Of a DNA stretch of 64,000 nt, positions 45,821 to 63,007 are shown piece by piece. The translations under genes and the position numbers were made by a program. The notes under the pieces were generated by a model. The model was not told the DNA's origin and did not search any database. It saw only the letters and a program-made list of their open reading frames with translations. Every line of letters begins with the position of its first letter. Position 1 is the first letter of the stretch. The stretch is from the NCBI GenBank assembly GCA_937872925.1, contig CALMUT010000371.1, positions 1-64,000 of the forward strand. Direction: 5' to 3'. Origin of the DNA: an uncultured Myxococcales bacterium. GTDB taxonomy: Bacteria; Myxococcota_A; Polyangia; Polyangiales; Polyangiaceae.

Positions 45821-47590
45821 GTGGAGCAGCGCGCCCTCGGCAATATTCTGATTCGCCGTGGCGTCGTGGCGCCGGAAGCCCTCGAACCCCTTTACGTGCA
45901 GCAGCGTGAGCGGGGCACGGGGCTGGTGGAGCTTCTGGTTCAATCCAAGGCTGCCAGCGAAGCCCAGGTGGCCCGGGCGTTGGCGGAGGAATGTGGGCTG
46001 CCCTACGTCGAGCGGATCGACATCGACGCCGTGCCGCTTTCGACGGCCACCATGCTGCCCATTACCTATGCCAAGAACCACAAGCTCTTGGTGGTGGCGG
46101 AGACGGACGAAACGGTCGACGTTGTCTGCGGCGACCCTCTAGACACCGACGCCCTAGACGATGTGCGCGCCACCTTCGGCAAGTTGGTGGTCACCCACGT
46201 GTCGGCGCCGGACATCGTCGTGGACGCGATCAACCGAGTCTACGAGCGCCAGGACACCAGCAGCGAGCTCGAAAGCGACGAGGAGATCCGAGACGACAAC
46301 GAAGTCGATATCTTGGAGTCTGACGAAGACGCGCCGATCATTCGTTGGGTGAACGGCCTGTTTTTCAGTGCCGTGAAGGAGCGCGCCAGCGACATTCACA
46401 TCGAGCCGGAGGAAAAAGAGGTCGCGGTGCGTTTCCGTATCGATGGCCAGCTTTATGTCGCACGGCGCGCCAGCCGCCAGTTCCTATCCAGCGTGGTGGC
46501 CCGCGTGAAGATCATGGCTGGCCTCAACATCGCGGAGAAGCGCCTACCTCAAGACGGTCGCATTTCTCTGCGCATCGCCGGCCGCAGTATCGACGTGCGT
46601 GTCTCGACCATTCCGACCAGCCGCGACCACGAGCGCATCGTGATGCGTCTGCTGCACAAGACGAACATTCTGCTCGACCTGAACGAGCTCGGCTTTGCCG
46701 AGCGCGACTACCACGTGATGAGCTCGCTCATCAAACGCCCCAACGGCATCATCTTGGTGACTGGGCCGACTGGTAGCGGCAAGACGACGACGTTGTACGC
46801 CTGCCTGAATAAGATCAACCGGCCGAATATCAACATCCTGACCGCGGAAGATCCGGTCGAATACGAGATCCAAGGCATTCACCAGTTGCCGGTGCAGCCG
46901 AAGATTGGCCTGACCTTCGCCGGCGCTCTGCGCGCCTTTTTGCGCCAGGATCCGGATGTGATCATGGTCGGGGAGATCCGCGATCGCGAGACGGCGGAGA
47001 TCGCCATTCACGCATCCATGACGGGTCACTTGGTGCTGAGCACCATCCACACCAACGACGCAGCTGGCGCGGTGACTCGCTTGGTCGAGATGGAGATCGA
47101 GCCCTTTTTGGTGCGGTCTACGGTCGTGGGGATCTTGGCCCAACGCCTGGTGCGCATGCTGTGCCGGGAATGCCGAGAGCCCTACGAGGCGAGCGCCCAC
47201 GAACTGTCCCAGCTCGGCATCGATCCGGAGCGCACGCGTTGGCGCGACGCCCGCAAGTTGTCGAGTCGGTACGAAGTGCACGGCGTGCCTTATGATCCCG
47301 TGGGGTGGCGTGGCCCAGGCATGCCCACCTTGTATCGAGCCAAGGGCTGCGACGCTTGTGAGAACAAGGGTTTTACGGGACGCGGCGGCATCTATGAACT
47401 CTTGGTCATGGACGACGATGTCGGCGGCCTAGTGCTCAAGAGCGCGGACGCGCAATCGATCAAGCGCGCCGCCCGCGCCAACGGCATGGATACGTTGCGG
47501 GACGATGGAGCGCGTAAGGTGCTGCTCGGCGTCACCACAGTCGAAGAAGTCGTCGCTGCCACACAGGAGGACATCGTCGTCGACGAGTGA
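45821..47590 (+). CDS. gspE: Type II secretion ATPase GspE
   Basis: GspE is the cytoplasmic hexameric ATPase driving pseudopilus assembly. The 589-residue protein has an N-terminal GspE_N (MshEN-like) domain (about 1-145), a Walker A GPTGSGKTTT with Lys321, an Asp box, a Walker B GEIRDRETAEIA, a His box (TGHLVLSTIHTND) and a zinc-binding Cys4 module (CRECREP ... CDACENKGF) near the C-terminus. GTG start at 45821 lies two bases after the GspD stop. Standard GspE length is about 500-600. Confidence 0.95.
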   Translation: MEQRALGNILIRRGVVAPEALEPLYVQQRERGTGLVELLVQSKAASEAQVARALAEECGLPYVERIDIDAVPLSTATMLPITYAKNHKLLVVAETDETVDVVCGDPLDTDALDDVRATFGKLVVTHVSAPDIVVDAINRVYERQDTSSELESDEEIRDDNEVDILESDEDAPIIRWVNGLFFSAVKERASDIHIEPEEKEVAVRFRIDGQLYVARRASRQFLSSVVARVKIMAGLNIAEKRLPQDGRISLRIAGRSIDVRVSTIPTSRDHERIVMRLLHKTNILLDLNELGFAERDYHVMSSLIKRPNGIILVTGPTGSGKTTTLYACLNKINRPNINILTAEDPVEYEIQGIHQLPVQPKIGLTFAGALRAFLRQDPDVIMVGEIRDRETAEIAIHASMTGHLVLSTIHTNDAAGAVTRLVEMEIEPFLVRSTVVGILAQRLVRMLCRECREPYEASAHELSQLGIDPERTRWRDARKLSSRYEVHGVPYDPVGWRGPGMPTLYRAKGCDACENKGFTGRGGIYELLVMDDDVGGLVLKSADAQSIKRAARANGMDTLRDDGARKVLLGVTTVEEVVAATQEDIVVDE

Positions 47591-48822
47591 CCGCCATGGC
47601 CGTGTACGAATACAAGGGCATCCAGATCGGCAGCGGTAAACCCGCCAAGGGTTACCGCGACGCCGACAACGTCAAAGCGCTCCGGGCCGCGCTGCGCCGT
47701 GAAGGCATTCTGCTGACCCTGGCCACCGAAGAGAGCGAGCGCAAGGCCAAGAAGACCCGCGACATCGACCTGTTGGCGTTCTTTCGTCGTCCCAGCTCCG
47801 CGGACATTGCGGTCATGACGCGGCAGCTCGCCACGCTGGTGCGTGCGGGGGTGCCGCTACTCGACTCCATCCAAGCGTTGACGGAGCAGGTTGAAAAAGA
47901 GTCCCTGGTTCGCATCTTGAGCACCGTGCGGGAGAGCCTCAACGAGGGCACGGGTTTCGCGAAGAGCCTCGAGGCGCACCCCAAGGTCTTCCCACCGCTG
48001 TACGTGAATATGGTCGCTGCCGGCGAAGAAAGCGGCACGCTGGAGAGCGTCCTCGAGCGCCTGGCGGACTTCATGGAAGGGCAAGCGCGGCTCAAGGGCA
48101 AGGTGCTCGGCGCGCTGGCCTATCCGGTGCTGATGACTTTGATTGGCGCCGTGCTGGTCAGCTTTCTAATGGTGGCGGTCGTGCCGAAGGTCACCAGCAT
48201 CTTCGACAACCTGGGTCAGGCGCTGCCTTGGTACACCTCGGTGCTCATCTTCGTCTCGGACGTGCTCTCAGGCTACTGGTGGCTGATCTTAATGTTGATG
48301 ACGATCGGTGGCTTTGGATTCCGCCGCTGGCACAGCACCAAAGAGGGCAAGCTGAAGTGGGACTCGATGAGCCTGCGCTGGCCCATCTTCGGCCGACTGA
48401 ACCAGTTGGTGGCGCTGTCGCGTTTCGCGCGCACCCTGGCCACCCTTCTAGCCAGCGGCGTGCCGCTGCTCAAGGCCATGGAGATCGGGCGTAACGTGCT
48501 CGGTAACGTGCGCCTAGAAGGCGTCGTGACCGAAGCGATTGGCTCGATCCGCGAAGGCGAGAGCATCGCCGAGCCCCTGAAGCGCAGTGGGCACTTTCCG
48601 CCCATGGTCACGCATATGATCGCCGTGGGTGAGCGCACCGGACAGCTGGAAAACATGCTCGAAAACGTCGCCCGGGCCTACGAGTCCGACGTGGAGACTC
48701 GCGTGGCCGCGCTGACCAGTCTGCTCGAGCCGCTGATGATCGTGCTCTTGGGCGGCATCGTGGGCTTCATCGCCATGGCGATCCTGATGCCGCTCATCCA
48801 GATGAATCAGATGGTGCAATGA
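47587..48822 (+). CDS. gspF: Type II secretion inner-membrane platform protein GspF
   Basis: GspF is the polytopic platform protein. The 411-residue protein has the two repeated cytoplasmic GspF domains (about 70-180 and 275-390), the first with MTRQLATLVRAGVPLLDSI and the second with FARTLATLLASGVPLLKAM, and three transmembrane helices (about 180-205, 225-250 and 380-405). GTG start at 47587 overlaps the GspE stop by four bases. Confidence 0.95.
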   Translation: MTAMAVYEYKGIQIGSGKPAKGYRDADNVKALRAALRREGILLTLATEESERKAKKTRDIDLLAFFRRPSSADIAVMTRQLATLVRAGVPLLDSIQALTEQVEKESLVRILSTVRESLNEGTGFAKSLEAHPKVFPPLYVNMVAAGEESGTLESVLERLADFMEGQARLKGKVLGALAYPVLMTLIGAVLVSFLMVAVVPKVTSIFDNLGQALPWYTSVLIFVSDVLSGYWWLILMLMTIGGFGFRRWHSTKEGKLKWDSMSLRWPIFGRLNQLVALSRFARTLATLLASGVPLLKAMEIGRNVLGNVRLEGVVTEAIGSIREGESIAEPLKRSGHFPPMVTHMIAVGERTGQLENMLENVARAYESDVETRVAALTSLLEPLMIVLLGGIVGFIAMAILMPLIQMNQMVQ

Positions 48823-49241
48823 TGATGCTCCGGCGCAGACGAGGTGGCGAAAAGCGCATCTTCTTCCCCTGGGAAGGACGCAGCGGCATCAGCCGCGCGG
48901 TGCGCATGGGCCGCTTGCGTCCCTTCCTTCTGGTGGCGGGCGTGCTGGGCTTTATCGTCGTGGTGGGAGTGCGCGAGCGGCATCGCGCCGGCGTGCGTCA
49001 GACGCGCGCCACGCTGCTGGATGTGCGCGGCGCAGTGGACACCTACATGGCTAGCAATGACGGCGGCTGCCCGCCGAGTCTGGATCGGGCGCTGGAGGCA
49101 GTTGCCTACCAGGGCAACGCCAGCGACGCCTGGGGGCGTTCGGTGCGCCTGTCATGCCCTGGCAAACGAGAGGGCGAGCTTTATGATCTTTCGAGCGATG
49201 GTCCCGATGGAAAACCTGGCGGACTCGATCGCATTCGCTGA
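48819..49241 (+). CDS. GspG-like protein without a prepilin cleavage site
   Basis: This 140-residue protein overlaps gspF by four bases and immediately precedes gspG. It has a basic N-terminus, one transmembrane helix (about 34-51, PFLLVAGVLGFIVVVGV), and a C-terminal part resembling GspG: a helical segment ATLLDVRGAVDTYMASNDGGCPP, a SDAWGRSVRLSC segment like the DPWG of GspG, and YDLSSDGPDGKPGGLD. The prepilin motif G-F-T-L-x-E is absent, so it is not a substrate for the peptidase. It may be a membrane-anchored platform or regulatory part of the pseudopilus. I know of no named family for it. Confidence 0.65.
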   Translation: MMMLRRRRGGEKRIFFPWEGRSGISRAVRMGRLRPFLLVAGVLGFIVVVGVRERHRAGVRQTRATLLDVRGAVDTYMASNDGGCPPSLDRALEAVAYQGNASDAWGRSVRLSCPGKREGELYDLSSDGPDGKPGGLDRIR

Positions 49242-49253
49242 ATGAGGAAAACG

Positions 49254-49688
49254 ATGGAACGACACACACAGCTTCAACTCCTTCGCCTGCGCCGCTTGCG
49301 TCGGCTCTCGCGGGGCGTGACCTTGGTCGAGGTTCTGATCGTCGTGGCAATCATCGCGATGATCGCCGGTGGCGTGACGGTATTTGCCTTGCCGAAGTAC
49401 CGCGATGCGCAAAAGACCACTGCAGAAACAGGCGCGCGGGTGATCCGTCAGGCCGTGCAGGGCTGGCAGGCGACCAACAACGAAATCAGCTGCCCCACCA
49501 TCAGCCAGCTGGTGCAGGAAAAGCAGCTCGACCCAGGTGCCAACACCAATGACCCTTGGGGCACGGCCTACTCGCTCAACTGCACGGAGGACGACGTGAT
49601 CGTCAGCTCCGCGGGGCCCGACAAGAAGAAGGGCACGAAAGACGACATCCGCGTGCCCAAGGGCGCAACGGAGTCTGCCGAGGAATGA
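49254..49688 (+). CDS. gspG: Major pseudopilin GspG
   Basis: GspG is the major subunit of the type II pseudopilus. The protein (144 residues from ATG 49254) has a long basic prepeptide ending LSRG, then VTLVEVLIVVAIIAMIAGGV, with Glu at +5; residue +1 is Val, not Phe. A C-terminal part has the typical NDPWGTAYSLNC and SAGPDKKKGTKDDI motifs. GAGGAAA at 49245-49250 fits as Shine-Dalgarno for ATG 49254; ATG 49242 (adjacent to the preceding stop) is the alternative. The C-terminus ends in an acidic GATESAEE tail. Confidence 0.9.
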   Translation: MERHTQLQLLRLRRLRRLSRGVTLVEVLIVVAIIAMIAGGVTVFALPKYRDAQKTTAETGARVIRQAVQGWQATNNEISCPTISQLVQEKQLDPGANTNDPWGTAYSLNCTEDDVIVSSAGPDKKKGTKDDIRVPKGATESAEE

Positions 49689-50410
49689 ATATGACTTGGA
49701 CTTCGATGCAGCATCGCTGTGCGCGCTCCGCCGCGCGAGGGCTCACCCTCGTCGAAGTCCTGGTCGTCGTGGCGCTGATTGCCGTGCTGTCCGGAGCCGT
49801 GGTGATCGGCTCAGGCTCTCTTGCCGGGAGCCGACAGCGCGCGGCGGCGACGTTGATCTTGTCTGGGGTGCGCTTGGGCGTGACCCGCGCGAATACCACG
49901 GGGCGCCCGGTGCGCATGGTCTTCGACCTGGACAAACACCGCGTGCACCTGGAAGAGAGTGCGGGGCGCAGCATGCTGCGCGAGAAGGAAGAAGTCAGCA
50001 CCGGCGGCGGCGCCGAGGCAGCCACCGAAGCAGAAAAGGAAAGCCGCGCCGAAGCCGACCGCATTCTCAAGGGCCCCCAGGCGCCGCGGGCGAAGTTTTC
50101 TCCGGTCAAGCAGTTCGGTTTCGACAGCAACGAAGCGGGCGGCCGCGCCCTGGGCAGCGGCATCGAATTCGGCGAGGTGCAAACCGAGCATGACGAAGCG
50201 CCGCGCAAAGAAGGCCGCGCCTATCTCTTCTTTTTCCCCGGCGGCGGCACCGAGCGCGCTGCGATTCAGATCCGCCAAAAGGGCGAGCGCGAAGGCGTCA
50301 CGGTGCTGGTCAGTCCGCTGACGGGGCGCGCAAAGATCCAGCGCGGCAACATCGCCCTCGAAGCGCCGCGCATGGACGAGACTTTTGGCCAGCGAGGCGA
50401 AGAAGAATGA
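49685..50410 (+). CDS. gspH: Minor pseudopilin GspH
   Basis: GspH is a minor pseudopilin. The 241-residue protein has the processing site ARG|LTLVEVLVVVALIAVLSGAV near the N-terminus, a helical stem and a beta-rich globular part. A charged Glu/Ala-rich insert (about 105-140) and long acidic C-terminal part make it longer than most GspH proteins (about 170-200). ATG 49685 overlaps the GspG stop; ATG 49691 is a possible alternative. Confidence 0.85.
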   Translation: MNMTWTSMQHRCARSAARGLTLVEVLVVVALIAVLSGAVVIGSGSLAGSRQRAAATLILSGVRLGVTRANTTGRPVRMVFDLDKHRVHLEESAGRSMLREKEEVSTGGGAEAATEAEKESRAEADRILKGPQAPRAKFSPVKQFGFDSNEAGGRALGSGIEFGEVQTEHDEAPRKEGRAYLFFFPGGGTERAAIQIRQKGEREGVTVLVSPLTGRAKIQRGNIALEAPRMDETFGQRGEEE

Positions 50411-51105
50411 CCCAGGGGCATCAGCGCCGCCGCGGCTTCACCTTACTAGAGGTGCTGGTGGCGATCTCGATCCTGGGCATGGGCCTGACGGTGATCTTGT
50501 CGTCTCAGGTAGGGCTCTTCTCCAGTGCCCAGCGCGCACAGAACCTCAGCGTTGCGACGGGCCTGGCACGCTGCAAGATGGCCGAAGCGGAGCTGAAGCT
50601 GATGCAAGAAGGCTACCCGCTGATCGATCAGAACGACGAGGGCCGCTGCTGCGACGATGAAGACACCAAGGGCTTTCGCTGCAAGTGGCAGACCCAAAGC
50701 GTGAAGCTACCGGAGCCCAAAGGGCTGTCGGATTTGGGCGGCGATGGCGGCCTCGACGACCAGAGCGGGCTCGGCGCCCTGGGAGCGCTTCAGGGCGTGC
50801 AGTCGGGCGGAGCCTCTGCCCTCACGGGTGACGGCGGCATCGCGGGCTTGGGCGGGCTGTTGACCCAGGCCGCCGGCGGTGGCGCCCAGGGCATGGCGCC
50901 GCTGGTGATGGGCATGGTCTATCCGGATCTGAAGCCCATGCTCGAGGCCAGCATTCGCAAGGTCAACGTCACGGTGGTGTGGAAAGAGGGCTCGCGCGAA
51001 CGCGAATTCTCCATCACCCAGTACATTACAAATCCCACCCAAGGTGGCCTCGACCCCAACGCGGCCAAGGGGCTCGAACAGCTGGAGGATCAGCTGCCAC
51101 CATGA
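50407..51105 (+). CDS. gspI: Minor pseudopilin GspI
   Basis: GspI is a minor pseudopilin of the tip complex. The 232-residue protein has the processing motif RRRG|FTLLEVLVAISILGMGLTV, a helical stem and a Cys-containing region (RCCDDEDTKGFRCKW). A Gly/Leu/Ala-rich insert of about 50 residues (DLGGDGGLDDQSGLGALGAL onwards) separates it from the C-terminal beta domain, so the protein is roughly 100 residues longer than usual. ATG 50407 overlaps the GspH stop. Confidence 0.85.
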   Translation: MTQGHQRRRGFTLLEVLVAISILGMGLTVILSSQVGLFSSAQRAQNLSVATGLARCKMAEAELKLMQEGYPLIDQNDEGRCCDDEDTKGFRCKWQTQSVKLPEPKGLSDLGGDGGLDDQSGLGALGALQGVQSGGASALTGDGGIAGLGGLLTQAAGGGAQGMAPLVMGMVYPDLKPMLEASIRKVNVTVVWKEGSREREFSITQYITNPTQGGLDPNAAKGLEQLEDQLPP

Positions 51106-53340: not shown

Positions 53341-54840
53341 ATGGCACGTTGGGTAGGCATAGACATTCGGGCATCGCACGTACGCGCGGTGTTGCTGCGC
53401 ACGAGCTATCGCAAGGTGGCGATCGAGCAGATGCTGGAAGTGAGCCTCGCCGAAGTTGCAGATCTCGACGCGGCGTTGCGCGCGGTGGCGTTGCCCCTCA
53501 TGCAGCAGGGTGAGCCCTTCGCCATTGCGGTGGAAGGAGAGCAGGCGTTTATCCACCGCTTGACGCTGCCTTCCACGGCGCTCAAGCAGCTGGCGGAGGT
53601 ATTGCCTTTCGAGATTGAGGCGAATGTGCCCGTGGCGTTGGATGACCTGGTCCACGACCATCGCCTGCTGCGCCGGGACCCGAAGGCCGAGCACGTCGTG
53701 GTCATGACCGCCGCCGCGCGCAAGGCGCAAGTGCGTGCACGCATCGATCACATCAAGGTGATTTTGGGTGCTGAGCCTGAACGCGTCGGCGTGGGCACGT
53801 TGCCCCTGGCCAATCTCGCGTCGCTGTGTCCGCAGCTGGCCGTGGCGGGCCCCGTAGCCGTCGTGGACCTGGGCGGGACCCGCACCGAAGTCGTCTTGCT
53901 GAGCCATGGGGAGCCCGTTTTTGCCCGCACCCTCAGCCGCGGCGTGGCGGGATTGCCCGAAAGCGCGTCTGCACTCGCTGCAGAACTGCGACAGACCTTC
54001 GTGGCTTGGCTAGCGCACGAGGGAGATCCCGTCGAAAGCATCTTCTTGGTCGGGGCGGGGGCGCACGCGCCGGGGGCCGAGAGCTATTTGGCGCACGAGC
54101 TTGGCATCGCGGTGCAGCAGCTGCCGCCCCTGGCCTTCGAACAGATCACCGACGACCAAAGCCAGAGCGTGCCGCGTTTCGCCAAGGCGATCGCCCTGGC
54201 GCTGGGCTTGGCCGGCCGCGGCCACGATTTGGACTTGCGTCAGGGGGGCTTGTCTTTCCAGCGCGGCTTTGGGTTTCTCAAAGAAAAGGTTCCGCTGCTG
54301 ACCGGCTTGGGGGCGGCAGTTTTGATCAGCTTTGCCTTCGCTACCTGGGCTGAGATGCGCGCGCTTTCAAGAGACGAAGAGACACTGACGAAGGCGCTGA
54401 GCGCGCTTTCCAAGGAAGTCTTGGGGCAGCCCGCAGAGACCGCCGAAGAAGCGCAGACGCTTCTGGAACGGGCCAAAGGCCTCGAAGAAACCGACCCGAT
54501 GCCCCATATGGACGCCTACGACACTATCGTCGAGCTCTCCACGGCCATTCCCATGAGCATCACCCACGACATCGAAGATTTCGACATGCAGCGTGGGCAT
54601 TTGAAGCTCAGTGGGGTGGTGGGGTCCACCCAAGACGCCCAGCAGATCGCGACGGCTTTGAAGGAAGTGAAGTGCTTCGAAGACGTGAAGATTTCGAAGA
54701 TCACGCAGGTCGTCAACAGCGACCGCCAAAAGTATGTGCTGGAGCTCGACGTGCGCTGCCCCGAAGACGCGCCGAAAAAGAAGAAGAAGAAGGCGGACGG
54801 TACCGGCGATAGTCCGGAGACCGAGGAGTCGAGCCAATGA
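53341..54840 (+). CDS. gspL: Type II secretion protein GspL
   Basis: GspL connects GspE to the platform. The 499-residue protein has a cytoplasmic actin-like (PilM/ASKHA) domain (about 1-315, with VAVVDLGGTRTEVVLLS), one transmembrane helix (about 318-336, LLTGLGAAVLISFAFATWA), and a periplasmic ferredoxin-like domain. A basic PKKKKKK and acidic tail ends the protein. It follows gspK by 29 bases (the only real gap among the gsp genes) and overlaps gspM by four bases. Confidence 0.9.
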   Translation: MARWVGIDIRASHVRAVLLRTSYRKVAIEQMLEVSLAEVADLDAALRAVALPLMQQGEPFAIAVEGEQAFIHRLTLPSTALKQLAEVLPFEIEANVPVALDDLVHDHRLLRRDPKAEHVVVMTAAARKAQVRARIDHIKVILGAEPERVGVGTLPLANLASLCPQLAVAGPVAVVDLGGTRTEVVLLSHGEPVFARTLSRGVAGLPESASALAAELRQTFVAWLAHEGDPVESIFLVGAGAHAPGAESYLAHELGIAVQQLPPLAFEQITDDQSQSVPRFAKAIALALGLAGRGHDLDLRQGGLSFQRGFGFLKEKVPLLTGLGAAVLISFAFATWAEMRALSRDEETLTKALSALSKEVLGQPAETAEEAQTLLERAKGLEETDPMPHMDAYDTIVELSTAIPMSITHDIEDFDMQRGHLKLSGVVGSTQDAQQIATALKEVKCFEDVKISKITQVVNSDRQKYVLELDVRCPEDAPKKKKKKADGTGDSPETEESSQ

Positions 54841-57425: not shown

Positions 57426-60400
57426 CTAGCTGTCGACGGCGATCTTCAGCTTCTGGCGGAGCTGGAAGTACTGTTCGCTGACCGAGAAGAGCACCAACTC
57501 TTTGATGCGCTCTTGGCCGCCGACGACGCTGGAGGCTTCGTCGGAGGCCTTGATGATCTCCGCGGCCGTTTCCAAGTCGTGGGCCAGGAGGAAGCCAGCG
57601 CGATCCGCGGTGAGGTCCACGCCGGCCATCCAACGCTTCAGGTCCAGGGCTGCCCCGGACTGCAGCAGTTTGGAGACGATGCGTGCGAGTTGGTCTCGCG
57701 CCGCGCCCTGCAGGTTGGCGTTCAAGGCCGCCGAGGCTTCGTTGACCGGACCTTCGAGCTCTCCAGCGATGGGGAACTGCGGCGCGATCAGCTTGATGGC
57801 CGCAAAGAGCCAGGACTTGAGCCCGGTGCCGCTTGGCACAATTTGCCGCACGTACAGCCCGGGGCGGTAGTACGAGAGGTGCCGCCCCGCGATGAACGCG
57901 GCAGCTTGCGGCGGCACGTCGGCAGCCAGCGCCGCCATGCCCAGCACTAGGGCCGGGCGATAGGAATGCAAGAACGAGAGCCCACCCGGATCATTGGTAT
58001 TCTGGAAGGTGGGTGGCGGCTCCATGCCGAAGACCCCTGCGGAGTAGTACAGGGTCTGGCTCATGGGGTAGGGGTGCCGCGTCAGGTCGATGGCGTAGCG
58101 CGGGTCGAAGCCGAGCTGTTCGAAGGCTTGACCCCGTGCCGCCAGGATGGCGGGCTCGATCAGCGCGAAGACGCTGGTGAGGAGCGGATCGGCACCGGCG
58201 TGCATCAGCTGCGTGATCCACTCTTCGTCGGAGAGCGCTTCGGCTGCTGGCGCCGCAGACTCCGCGCGCATGCGCTTGAAAAAACGCTCTTCGTCGGGCT
58301 CGGCTAGGTTCAGCACATACAGCGCCTGGCACAAGTTCCAGGCCGCGTCTGCGCGCTTCACTTCGGTATAGAGGCGGCGCAGGAGCTTGTAGGATTCCGG
58401 TCGGTACGGGTTCTGACGCATCAACGCGTGTTGAGACGTCACGGCCTTCTCGAGATACTTCTCGGGATCCCGCGCATACATCTCGCCCAGGTGTTCCGCA
58501 CGCGCACGGTTTTCGGGCTCCAGGGTCTGCGCGGCTTCCAAGGCGTCAATTGCACGGTCCGGCCAGTTGAGGTGCTTCTCGTACAGTTCGGCGAGCTCCA
58601 AGAAAGTCTCCAGCATGACCTTCTTGTCCTTCTCTGCGGTGGCGTGTTCGAGTTTGCGCTGAAGTAGCTTCTCGACGCCGCGATGGTCGCCTTTGTCTTT
58701 GCGCAGCTCGATCGCTTCGGACAGTGCCTTGTCAGCCTTGGGGTCGAGCTCCAGCACACGGCCGTAGAACTCCAGGGCTCGGTCGACGTCGCCCATCTGA
58801 CGGGCACAGACAATGGCCGCGGTCTGCAGGTACTTCGCACGCTGCTTGGGCTCTTCGACGAAGTCTGCCAAGCGCAGCACAACGTCCACCAGCTTGCCCC
58901 AGTCCTTTTCCTCGCTGTACAGCTGCATCAGCTTGGTCAGAAGCCGGCGATCTTCCGGCTTCTCTTCCAAAGCAGCCACGTAGCTCTTGGTGGCACGGGT
59001 GCGGTCGTTTAGGTGCTCGGACGCAATGTCGCCAATATCGATCAAGAGGTCCGCACGCTGATCCCCATCGGCGATATCCAGGTGGCGGGTCTTGATCTTG
59101 ATGGCGCCTTCCCAGTCGCCTTTGCCGGCGCATACACCGGCGAGCGCCTCTAGGGGCAGCGCTGCGGACGGATCCAAATCGGCGGCTTCTTCCAGGGCCT
59201 TTTGCGCTTCGTCCCAGCGCTCGCAGCGGCGCAGGGCTTCGCCATAGCGAGCTAAGGACAGCGCCTTGTCTTTGGCTTTCAGCTGCTTTCCGAAGCGCTC
59301 TAGGTAGTCTTTGTAGAGGTCAACGGCGCGTGCAGGGGCGCCGTTCTCGAAGGTGACCTGAGCGACGCGGCCGAAGGCTTCCATGTCCTCGGGTGCGATG
59401 CGCAGCAGGGTGTCCATCGGCGCAAGTGCGTCCTCGGTGGACCCGCTCTGGGTCAACGAGTCCACATAGCGAACCAGCACGCGTACTGCGTCTTTCTTTT
59501 CGAGGCTCTCTGCGCGTCCTGCCAGCGCGCCAAAGTGCTTTGCGGCTTCGAGCAGTCGGCCGCTTTCGAATGCCAAGTCGCCGAGCAACATGAGCCCGTG
59601 GATGTTGGTGGGGTCGAAAGAGATCGCGCGCTTAGCGGCTTCCTCGGACCGCTTCGGGTCCTTGAGCTTGTCCCGCAGTAGCATCGCCAGCTCGCCGGCT
59701 AGCTTGGACTTGGCGCGATCGCCGTCAGTGCGTTCAAGCTCGCGCTCCAACAACTTGATGGCGGCGTTCACGTCTCCCCGAGCGAGATACGCTCCGCGCA
59801 AGGCGGCGGAGGTGCCAGCGTCACCGGGGTTGGCATCCAGCGCCAGCTTGTAGCGCTCGATAGCGCGATCCCGATCGCCGCGGCCTTCGAGTAGTCTGGC
59901 TGCGCGCAAGTACTGTTCAGCCTTGGCCTCCGGCGTACCGGCCTTCTCGGCCAGGGCGTCGATCGCCGATAGCGCCGCGTCCGCGTCGCCCGCGGTCTCC
60001 CGTAGCCGAGCCAACGCTTCCAGGGCCCCGGCGTGTTCGGGATCGAGCTCCAGGGCTTTTTCGTAGGCCACGGTGGCGCGGTCGGTGGCACCGACCTGCT
60101 CCATCAGCACGCGGCCCAGGGCCAGCGTGAGCTCTAGCTGGTGTGCGGGTTCGGCGACCAACTTGATGTGACGCTCGTACAGACCCGCCACGTCTTCCCA
60201 GCGATCGAGGGCGCGGTAGTGCCGCACCAGGGCAGAGAGTGCGCCTTCATGCGCGGAATCGATCTCCAGAATCGCTTCCCAGGCGGCCGCTGCCTTTTCG
60301 TGATCGAGGAACTCTTCGTCCTGGATCCCTGCAATGCGCTCCCAGAGCGTGATCTTTTGCCGTGGCGTCGCGGCCAGCTGGATCTGCTTTTCCAAGTTGG

Positions 60401-62747
60401 CTGCCAAGTCCTGGAAACGGCCCAGCTTCGCGAGCACTCGGTCGGCCCCGCGCAGGGCATCGAGGTTGTTGGCGTCCGCCGCCAGCACGGCGTCGTAGCG
60501 ACGCATGGCTTCCCCATCGTCTTTGAGCCGCGTTTCGTAGATCTCTGCCAGATGGCACAGCACCCGGGATTGGTCCTCTCCGCGAGAGGCATCCGCGCGC
60601 CGTTCGAGCAGCTTCACGTATTCCCCGAAGTCTCCACTGCGCTCGTAGATCTTCGCCAGGGCGTCACTGGCGCGCTGGTGCCCCGGGTCTTCGGCGAGAA
60701 CCTGTTGGTACAAGTCGCGCGCGCGACCCGCGTCGCTCATTTGCACTTCCAGGATTTCCGCGGCTTCGGCCCGGAAATCTCGGCCGCGTTCGGGGGTCGG
60801 CGCGGCGTCTGCGCGGCGTGTGAGCACCAGAACCAGCTCCGGCCATTGCTGGGCCTTGCGATAGATTTGGGTCATGCCCTCGAGGGCCTCGTCGTTCGCG
60901 GGATCCGTGCCGATCACGGCCTGGTAGCAAGGCAGTGCCAGATCGAGACGCGCCACCTGGTCGCCGTACCAGTGACCCATGCGATTGAAGAGCGCGTTCT
61001 TGGCTTCTTGTGGCAGGTCGTCTTGTAGCGTGGCCTCGGCGCAGGTCGAGAGCACCTCGCCCCAAGTCTCCGGCTTCGCCAGTCGTTCGATCTCTTCGGC
61101 GTAGCTGCTGTCTTGGGGCGCTTCGGTGAAGGCCTGGGTGTACGCCACCAGCGCTTGATCCTTGTCGTCGAGTTCAGCCGCGTACAGGCGACCAATTTCA
61201 GCGAGGGCACGGGCGCGTTCGCCGCGGCTTTCCGCCTGCTCACTGCGCGCCAGCAGCATCTCGACGAGTTCTTCGAATTTGCCGAGTTGCTTGCGCACGT
61301 CTTCGAGCGCCGTCAGCGCGATCTCGTCGCTGGGGTCGAGCTCGACTAGCAACGCATAGGCCTGTTCCGCCTTCTCGGCGTCCTTGGCAGAGTGCTCGTA
61401 CAAACGCGCTGCACGGAACAAGAGGCCCTTCTTGGCTTCGCGCTTTTCCTTGCTTTCCGCGATATCCAAAGTGTCCGCGGCCATCGAAAAGGCCTCGGCG
61501 ACCCGCGCCGCGTCGGCGCCTTCTTCGACTGCGGCTTCCAATGCAATCGCGGCATCGTCGTCTTCCGGATCCGTCACCAAGGCGCCGATGCGGGAGTCCA
61601 GCTCCGCGTCCGTGATCTTCTTTTCTTTCCGCTGGACGGACGCGCGGCCCATGATCTCCAGGGCTTCGAGCAGCGCGGTGGCGTCCTTGGGTCGCTTCTC
61701 GGGGTCCTTGTCCAGCATCGACTGCACCCACTCGTCGATGTCCTTGGTGACCCAACCCCGGGGCGCAACGCTGCTCGGCGCAGGCGCCTGTTCCGTCAAG
61801 TGGCCGATGGCCGCCTTGATGGCGGTACCATCTCCGAATACGGGCTTGCCCGTGAGGATTTCGAAGAGCAGCGCGCCAAAGGAGTACACGTCGCTTTGGG
61901 GCGACGACGCCATGCCGCGGATCTGCTCCGGGGCGACGCTCTTCGGAGAACCAACGGTGGAAAACAGCTCGTTCTGGCCGTTGGCGCTGACCTTGGCGCG
62001 TGCCCGGAGGCGATCGGAGCCTGCGTCGAGGATGACGAGGTTCTGGCTGCCGTCGGGCTTGCGGAAGACGACGATGTTTTCGAGCCGGAGATCCCCGTGG
62101 GACAGGCGGCGCGCGTGGATGGCGCTGAGCGCCTCGAGCATGGCCTTGAGCAAGGGCCGCGCTTCGTTGATGTGCATGGGCCCTGTGCGCGCGATGCGCA
62201 CGGCCAAGGGCTGTCCGTCAACGTAGGCGTGGCTGATGGCGATGCGGTCGCCAATGGGGCCCGCATGGAGCTCCTTCGGCAGGCCGGGGTGAGCGATGGT
62301 GCCGACCAGGCGGCTGACGGTGAGGAACCGATGCAGGCCGCGCAAGTCGCGGGTTGCCTCGCGACGCAGCACCTTGATGCGATGGTCCGCGTCTCCCAGC
62401 CTCGCGAGGTAGGAGATGGCTAGACGCCCTTCGCCCAGTTTGCGCACGATCGTGAAGTCGCCCAGGGTGGCTCCACTGCGCAGCTCTTCATCGAAGGGCA
62501 GCCCGTTGACTCGGATCTGTCCGATCTTCGGATTCACCTCGGGCTTCGAAGCCAGCAGCGCGTCGCAGAGTGCTTCGACCGCGTCGACCTCGGCGCAGTG
62601 ATCGGTCAGCGCTTTGGCAAAGGAGCCCTTCGCCGCGGTGCCACCCACTTCATCCGGGTCGAAACCGAGCACGCTGCGTGACATTTGCAGGAGCTCTTCG
62701 AGTTCGAACAGGCGCTCTAGTTCGGCGCGAAGTATCTCGATGGACAT
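57426..62747 (-). CDS. Kinase-like/TPR fusion protein
   Basis: The 1,773-residue protein has three parts. An N-terminal Ser/Thr-kinase-like domain (about 93-365) has a weak G-loop (LGEGRLA), Lys125 at the ATP-lysine position, catalytic loop HGDLRLEN with Asp219 and Asn224, DAG (Asp241) in place of DFG, and APEQ with Glu274. Key residues remain but HRD is HGD and K is R, so activity is uncertain. Then about 1,100 residues of TPR-type helical repeats of about 110 residues follow, similar in style to the giant protein at 14064. A C-terminal 290-residue domain contains YYRPG and DLTADRAG segments reminiscent of M48 peptidases but with no HExxH. ATG 62747 is the start. No signal peptide. Confidence 0.85.
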   Translation of the reverse strand: MSIEILRAELERLFELEELLQMSRSVLGFDPDEVGGTAAKGSFAKALTDHCAEVDAVEALCDALLASKPEVNPKIGQIRVNGLPFDEELRSGATLGDFTIVRKLGEGRLAISYLARLGDADHRIKVLRREATRDLRGLHRFLTVSRLVGTIAHPGLPKELHAGPIGDRIAISHAYVDGQPLAVRIARTGPMHINEARPLLKAMLEALSAIHARRLSHGDLRLENIVVFRKPDGSQNLVILDAGSDRLRARAKVSANGQNELFSTVGSPKSVAPEQIRGMASSPQSDVYSFGALLFEILTGKPVFGDGTAIKAAIGHLTEQAPAPSSVAPRGWVTKDIDEWVQSMLDKDPEKRPKDATALLEALEIMGRASVQRKEKKITDAELDSRIGALVTDPEDDDAAIALEAAVEEGADAARVAEAFSMAADTLDIAESKEKREAKKGLLFRAARLYEHSAKDAEKAEQAYALLVELDPSDEIALTALEDVRKQLGKFEELVEMLLARSEQAESRGERARALAEIGRLYAAELDDKDQALVAYTQAFTEAPQDSSYAEEIERLAKPETWGEVLSTCAEATLQDDLPQEAKNALFNRMGHWYGDQVARLDLALPCYQAVIGTDPANDEALEGMTQIYRKAQQWPELVLVLTRRADAAPTPERGRDFRAEAAEILEVQMSDAGRARDLYQQVLAEDPGHQRASDALAKIYERSGDFGEYVKLLERRADASRGEDQSRVLCHLAEIYETRLKDDGEAMRRYDAVLAADANNLDALRGADRVLAKLGRFQDLAANLEKQIQLAATPRQKITLWERIAGIQDEEFLDHEKAAAAWEAILEIDSAHEGALSALVRHYRALDRWEDVAGLYERHIKLVAEPAHQLELTLALGRVLMEQVGATDRATVAYEKALELDPEHAGALEALARLRETAGDADAALSAIDALAEKAGTPEAKAEQYLRAARLLEGRGDRDRAIERYKLALDANPGDAGTSAALRGAYLARGDVNAAIKLLERELERTDGDRAKSKLAGELAMLLRDKLKDPKRSEEAAKRAISFDPTNIHGLMLLGDLAFESGRLLEAAKHFGALAGRAESLEKKDAVRVLVRYVDSLTQSGSTEDALAPMDTLLRIAPEDMEAFGRVAQVTFENGAPARAVDLYKDYLERFGKQLKAKDKALSLARYGEALRRCERWDEAQKALEEAADLDPSAALPLEALAGVCAGKGDWEGAIKIKTRHLDIADGDQRADLLIDIGDIASEHLNDRTRATKSYVAALEEKPEDRRLLTKLMQLYSEEKDWGKLVDVVLRLADFVEEPKQRAKYLQTAAIVCARQMGDVDRALEFYGRVLELDPKADKALSEAIELRKDKGDHRGVEKLLQRKLEHATAEKDKKVMLETFLELAELYEKHLNWPDRAIDALEAAQTLEPENRARAEHLGEMYARDPEKYLEKAVTSQHALMRQNPYRPESYKLLRRLYTEVKRADAAWNLCQALYVLNLAEPDEERFFKRMRAESAAPAAEALSDEEWITQLMHAGADPLLTSVFALIEPAILAARGQAFEQLGFDPRYAIDLTRHPYPMSQTLYYSAGVFGMEPPPTFQNTNDPGGLSFLHSYRPALVLGMAALAADVPPQAAAFIAGRHLSYYRPGLYVRQIVPSGTGLKSWLFAAIKLIAPQFPIAGELEGPVNEASAALNANLQGAARDQLARIVSKLLQSGAALDLKRWMAGVDLTADRAGFLLAHDLETAAEIIKASDEASSVVGGQERIKELVLFSVSEQYFQLRQKLKIAVDS

Positions 62748-63007
62748 GGTGTTCGCTTGGTCCTTGGTGATGCGGAGGGATTGCGCGGAAATGAAGGCGT
62801 CTATTCGAGTCCCCGCGCGCAGCTGCGCACGCTCGACAGGGCTCCCACGCTGAGGGGCTCGCATGATAGCCAAACGCGGGGCCGATTCCATACCGCTTCG
62901 GAGTCCGCCGACGCAATGTGTAAGTATCGGAAATGGAAGGGCTTTTGTCGCTGTTTTTGCGTGGGATTGGGCCCAGGGCAGCTCCCCGTGGCAGGCTGGG
63001 CTCCCTG

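Follow-up and report, generated by a model that had tools for sequence, protein, structure and literature searches.

The window analysed here, a stretch of 64,000 nucleotides from an uncultured Myxococcales bacterium (contig CALMUT010000371.1; “the order” below is the GTDB order Polyangiales), contains a type II secretion system (T2SS) operon whose genes, gspC to gspN, are arranged as usual. Except for gspF, gspG and the PilN-like part of gspL, which were checked, the operon genes were named from their position and translation. A further gene, called X here, lies between gspF and gspG, and the features of the locus are the following:

47587..48822, + strand: gspF, platform protein (open reading frame, ORF; kept upstream of X in relatives)
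48819..49241, + strand: X, prepilin-less GspG paralogue, 140 amino acids (ORF; Pfam T2SSG match; homologues sited between gspF and gspG)
48858..48875, + strand: cytoplasmic motif IFFPWE, residues 14-19 of X (homologue alignment)
48915..48971, + strand: predicted single transmembrane segment of X, residues 33-51, with no Glu5 and no following Pro (hydropathy and counts; model helix 21-79)
49068..49157, + strand: region of X bounded by two Cys, C84 and C113 (invariant in X, at matching places in GspG)
49119..49229, + strand: GspG-like head core of X, residues 101-137 (T2SSG profile match; fold match)
49242..49688, + strand: gspG, major pseudopilin with the canonical prepilin motif RGVTLVEV (N_methyl, 29 bits; TIGR02532, 23.6 bits)
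49691..50410, + strand: gspH-like minor pseudopilin (prepilin-type start in the translation; name from position)
50407..51105, + strand: gspI-like minor pseudopilin (prepilin-type start in the translation; name from position)
53341..54840, + strand: gspL-like gene with a PilM-like cytoplasmic part and a PilN-like part, whose product is a candidate partner for PWE (PilN match; position and order)

As read from the window, X is an ORF of 140 codons that starts with ATG. In agreement with the earlier note, which had placed it between gspF and gspG and overlapping the former, the gspF stop codon (48822) overlaps the start of X by 4 bp, and the stop codon of X directly abuts the gspG ATG at 49242 (although the true start of gspG may be the second ATG, at 49254). 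The gspL-like protein matches the PilN domain (PF05137) at 54535-54744 with 22.4 bits, just below the cut-off of 22.8. The possibility that X substitutes for a missing core gene was rejected, as ORFs fitting gspC to gspN are all present in order; consequently, X must be regarded as an additional gene. Convergent with the end of the operon, the minus strand encodes (57426-62891) a protein of 1821 amino acids that reads as a Ser/Thr kinase with long TPR-type repeats after the kinase part.

Several observations place the head of X in the GspG family. The Pfam family T2SSG (PF08334) matches residues 101-137 with 25.6 bits (cut-off 21), while the neighbouring true GspG reaches 20.0 bits against the same profile. 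With the NCBIfam GspG model (TIGR01710), X scores 24.3 bits, below the cut-off of 88.85, as does the adjacent genuine GspG (31.5 bits). At E≤1, X matched nothing besides GspG-type families in Pfam and NCBIfam, and T2SSG was the sole match in Pfam, so that neither the PilN domain (PF05137), nor the families of the minor pseudopilins GspH-K, nor any differently named T2SS family was found. Additionally, a profile-profile comparison (hhalign) of 50 X homologues with 30 GspG sequences gave a probability of 98.9% (E 2.7e-17, 90 columns, 28% identity). The AlphaFold2 model of X, built from the family alignment (pLDDT 89.4), consists of one long helix (residues 21-79, with the membrane segment at about 33-51) and a small GspG-type head. 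With this model, Foldseek ranked GspG structures at the top, none of them reaching an E value of 0.001, and structural alignment with the best GspG structures gave Z values of 9.8-10.1 (for instance, an rmsd of 1.8 Å over 86 residues with 3fu1), compared with at most 5.7 for non-GspG pilins.

The head of X also has conserved characteristics of its own. Exactly two periplasmic Cys residues are found in 50/50 X homologues, and this pair, C84-C113, probably forms a disulfide; the invariant head positions are C84, P85, D103, W105, C113, S126 and G128. By contrast with GspG, where D134 and D135 (two Asp that we take to be calcium ligands) are invariant in the C-terminal loop, this loop reads GLDR in most of the window protein's own family and has DDN or other endings elsewhere. 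Taken together, the assignment of the head to the GspG family is strong. The earlier note had described a single-helix protein of 140 residues whose C-terminal part resembles GspG; the length and the resemblance hold, now with profile and predicted-structure comparisons behind them, but the helix does not stand alone, since the model adds the small head.

In addition to the head, GspG proteins are characterised by their prepilin signal, which the earlier note had found missing from X. This absence extends to the whole family: the canonical prepilin core is present in 0/50 X homologues vs 30/30 GspG, and the proline that follows the membrane helix in 27/30 GspG is present in 0/50. X has no N_methyl or prepilin match in Pfam or NCBIfam, while the neighbouring GspG does, and neither a signal peptidase I site nor a lipobox was seen by eye in the X of the window. 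Moreover, the best hydrophobic segment contains Arg or Lys in 43/50 homologues. The N-terminus is basic (mean charge +6.4), more so than the region after the membrane segment in 47/50 sequences, and, following the positive-inside rule, X is predicted to be oriented N-in, with a cytoplasmic tail and a periplasmic head.

These characteristics bear on the possibility that X is a minor pseudopilin, built into the filament either uncleaved or after non-canonical processing. From residue 22 onward, the model of X aligns with PulG in its filament form, and GspK, which lacks Glu5 and is still incorporated, provides a precedent. However, the prepilin core is missing throughout the family, charged residues interrupt most of the hydrophobic segments, and the basic tail of 30 residues would presumably need to sit in the filament core, which makes this option very unlikely.

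The tail contains a short conserved motif that the earlier note did not mention. Its consensus is (I/V)x(F/L)PWE, followed by basic residues; exact PWE occurs in 46/50 X homologues (P in 47/50, W in 49/50 and E in 49/50), and most of the neighbouring N-terminal positions are variable. Residues 1-20 have no regular structure in the AlphaFold model, as would be expected of a linear motif that becomes folded upon binding its partner. When the genome was searched for other proteins with the same tag, two further DNA matches appeared, neither of them at a credible protein start. The conservation of PWE fits the idea, put forward in the earlier note, of an adaptor at the platform. In any case, the motif cannot be indispensable everywhere, because X genes outside the order, as well as those of genus g13 inside it, keep the head and lack PWE.

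Regarding its distribution, 54/59 relatives have a match, and the arrangement gspF-X-gspG recurs in almost all of those examined. In a survey of the order, 135/144 genomes had a match, 130 of them at more than 100 bits, the level at which X was counted; GspG itself scores about 70 bits or less. The presence of the gene in related operons, which the earlier note had left to be checked, is thus the rule in this order. The dN/dS of X is 0.02-0.30, similar to that of GspG (the lower values come from pairs near synonymous saturation), and, by this measure, X is under purifying selection. In a tree of the heads, X forms a clade apart from GspG (UFBoot 91, or 88 when L058 and L061 are included), adding phylogeny to the domain, profile and fold evidence for the GspG derivative among pseudopilins that the earlier note had suspected. 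X-like genes without PWE are found in three class-level genomes outside the order (L058, L061 and L062, the last with an unresolved placement in the tree), while others have only GspG. As the head alignment has 79 columns, the duplication can be dated only roughly, early in the class.

Beyond these genomes, viral contigs contained no relatives of X, and a search of genome contigs for X alone returned one match (contig QJWJ01000431.1). At L023:5001-5867, X and GspG share one open frame of 289 amino acids, in which the GspG prepilin motif is now internal; this could be either a natural fusion or the result of a lost stop codon together with an internal start.

One genome of the order, G126, is 99% complete and has gspF directly followed by gspG, which is a secondary loss and indicates that X can be lost. 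A gspE-gspF fusion in this genome was considered and rejected, as the long frame is only a GC-rich open frame. The loss in G126 agrees with a decaying, functionless gspG duplicate, but that reading is contradicted by the retention of X across the order and by dN/dS values well below 1, and the age of the clade and the conserved new motif also argue against it; we consider it extremely unlikely.

Duplication of gspG is not restricted to X. In other classes of the phylum, there are T2SS operons with gspG duplicates located 3′ of gspG that lack Glu5 or the whole prepilin signal. The heads of L074 (86% identity to its own GspG), L135 (69%), L136 (72%) and the first copy of L139 (71%) each resemble the GspG of their genome far more than they resemble the remaining copies, which points to at least four duplication events independent of X. 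L102, L138 and the second of the two extra copies of L139 are more diverged. A mixed tree of the duplicates with sequences from the window gave no resolution, being too short, so the evidence for this independence consists of the identities between heads and of the L074 pair (UFBoot 99-100). Some young duplicates may be decaying copies, and the genomes are drafts; even so, unless a non-polymerising GspG head has some use, the repeated loss of the signal would be difficult to account for.

Other arrangements were also observed. L137 has two tandem gspG genes between gspF and gspH, both with a normal prepilin motif. L079 (G000:C9:20276-20386) encodes a T2SSG-domain protein of 107 amino acids (24.8 bits) with a possible lipoprotein signal, far from its own T2SS operon. 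The locus L049:4893-5303 (G053) is not part of a T2SS operon and encodes a GspG head, close to the genome's own GspG, that is attached to a membrane segment of non-prepilin type.

What such a head could be used for may be explained in diverse ways. For instance, X could be a negative regulator, that is, a GspG mimic which cannot leave the membrane and which, by capping the assembly site or competing for it, limits pseudopilus length or stops idle assembly. A head of the same type without Glu5, proline or cleavage agrees with this role, a loop ending in DR or DN instead of the DD of GspG would suit a subunit unable to pack normally, and the repeated independent origin beside gspG fits the recruitment of dominant-negative copies. 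However, X is tightly coupled within the same operon and is probably made in amounts comparable to those of the platform; in the absence of tuning, such amounts would poison assembly. A regulatory role also does not in itself explain PWE. Such a function seems unlikely.

It is also conceivable, although quite improbable, that X is a periplasmic adaptor on the substrate or secretin side, GspC-like in its role, whose head binds cargo or GspD/GspC and whose membrane segment is only an anchor. The invariant positions sit in the head, and the extra head of L138 has a lipoprotein-like anchor (IAGC), so that one anchor may do as well as another. By contrast, within the order the conservation of the PWE tail almost equals that of the head, and the tail lies on the wrong side of the membrane for this function.

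The reading that we tentatively prefer is that X is a platform-resident, non-polymerising paralogue of GspG that works as a base anchor or loading adaptor. The identity of X is strong; its mechanism is what we infer. X is an old copy of GspG that is apparently no longer cut and built into the filament and, as it is kept by nearly the whole order, it probably belongs to the secretion machine as a fixed, so far undescribed component. Because it would remain uncleaved and has neither Glu5 nor the helix-breaking proline of pilins, X would stay in the inner membrane, outside the filament. Its cytoplasmic tail would bind the soluble face of the platform through PWE, the candidates being GspE, the loops of GspF or the PilM-like domain of GspL, while its head would offer a GspG-like surface that holds GspG subunits, or hands them over, at the base of the growing pseudopilus. 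The family and fold, the absence of processing, PWE, the charge pattern, the retention across the order and the recurrent duplicates elsewhere make this adaptor possible, if far from assured; the loss of X in G126 and the lack of PWE in g13 and outside the order speak against it. In a more specific proposal, which is rather doubtful, X would be a new T2SS component that uses a trick similar to that of PilN: its PWE tail would fill a groove of the PilM-like GspL domain, or one of GspE, and the permanently membrane-bound GspG head would be coupled to the ATPase ring as a template or gate for pseudopilus assembly, such heads having been invented several times in the phylum.

How GspG subunits pass from the membrane onto the platform, and how the ATPase is coupled to it, has yet to be settled for type II secretion and type IV pili. 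A natural, conserved and apparently non-polymerising GspG with a cytoplasmic handle would be a ready-made probe for the loading site. Additionally, automatic annotation based on T2SSG may well call such genes a second GspG.

A second, unprocessed GspG was neither described nor named in the searchable papers, a set that leaves most subscription journals outside its scope, and X is best compared with four known systems. In type IV pili, the N-terminal INLLP motif of PilN binds PilM. Like PilN, X is bitopic, with a short hydrophobic-Pro motif, a basic stretch and a membrane segment; unlike PilN, it has no PilN domain and its head is GspG-like, and the PilN of its own genome reads INLLPQKR, without WE, where X has (I/V)x(F/L)PWE. 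The resemblance of the tails is a lead only. GspL of the T2SS is described as a natural fusion of PilM and PilN (PMC6325625).

The mitochondrial GspG of jakobids and heteroloboseans is likewise a GspG head anchored in the inner membrane (PMC8134430). Its maturation is open, processing in the matrix or by another peptidase having been proposed instead of the prepilin peptidase, and the proposal is that the protein, once matured, is assembled into the pseudopilus (PMC8134430), while X coexists with a normal GspG. The extra gspG copies of L074, L102, L135, L136, L138 and L139 share with X a GspG head, a site adjacent to gspG and the lack of Glu5 or of the entire prepilin signal, but they lie 3′ of gspG, have a separate origin and lack PWE. 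Finally, X shares with the major pseudopilin GspG the head domain, the fold, the gene neighbourhood and the Cys pair of this class, and differs from it in the lack of a prepilin leader, cleavage site, Glu5 and proline after the helix, in its long basic tail with PWE and in a C-terminal loop that ends in DR or DN rather than DD. The head of X is therefore a known domain, and what is new, being undescribed in the searchable papers, is the combination of features and its fixed place.
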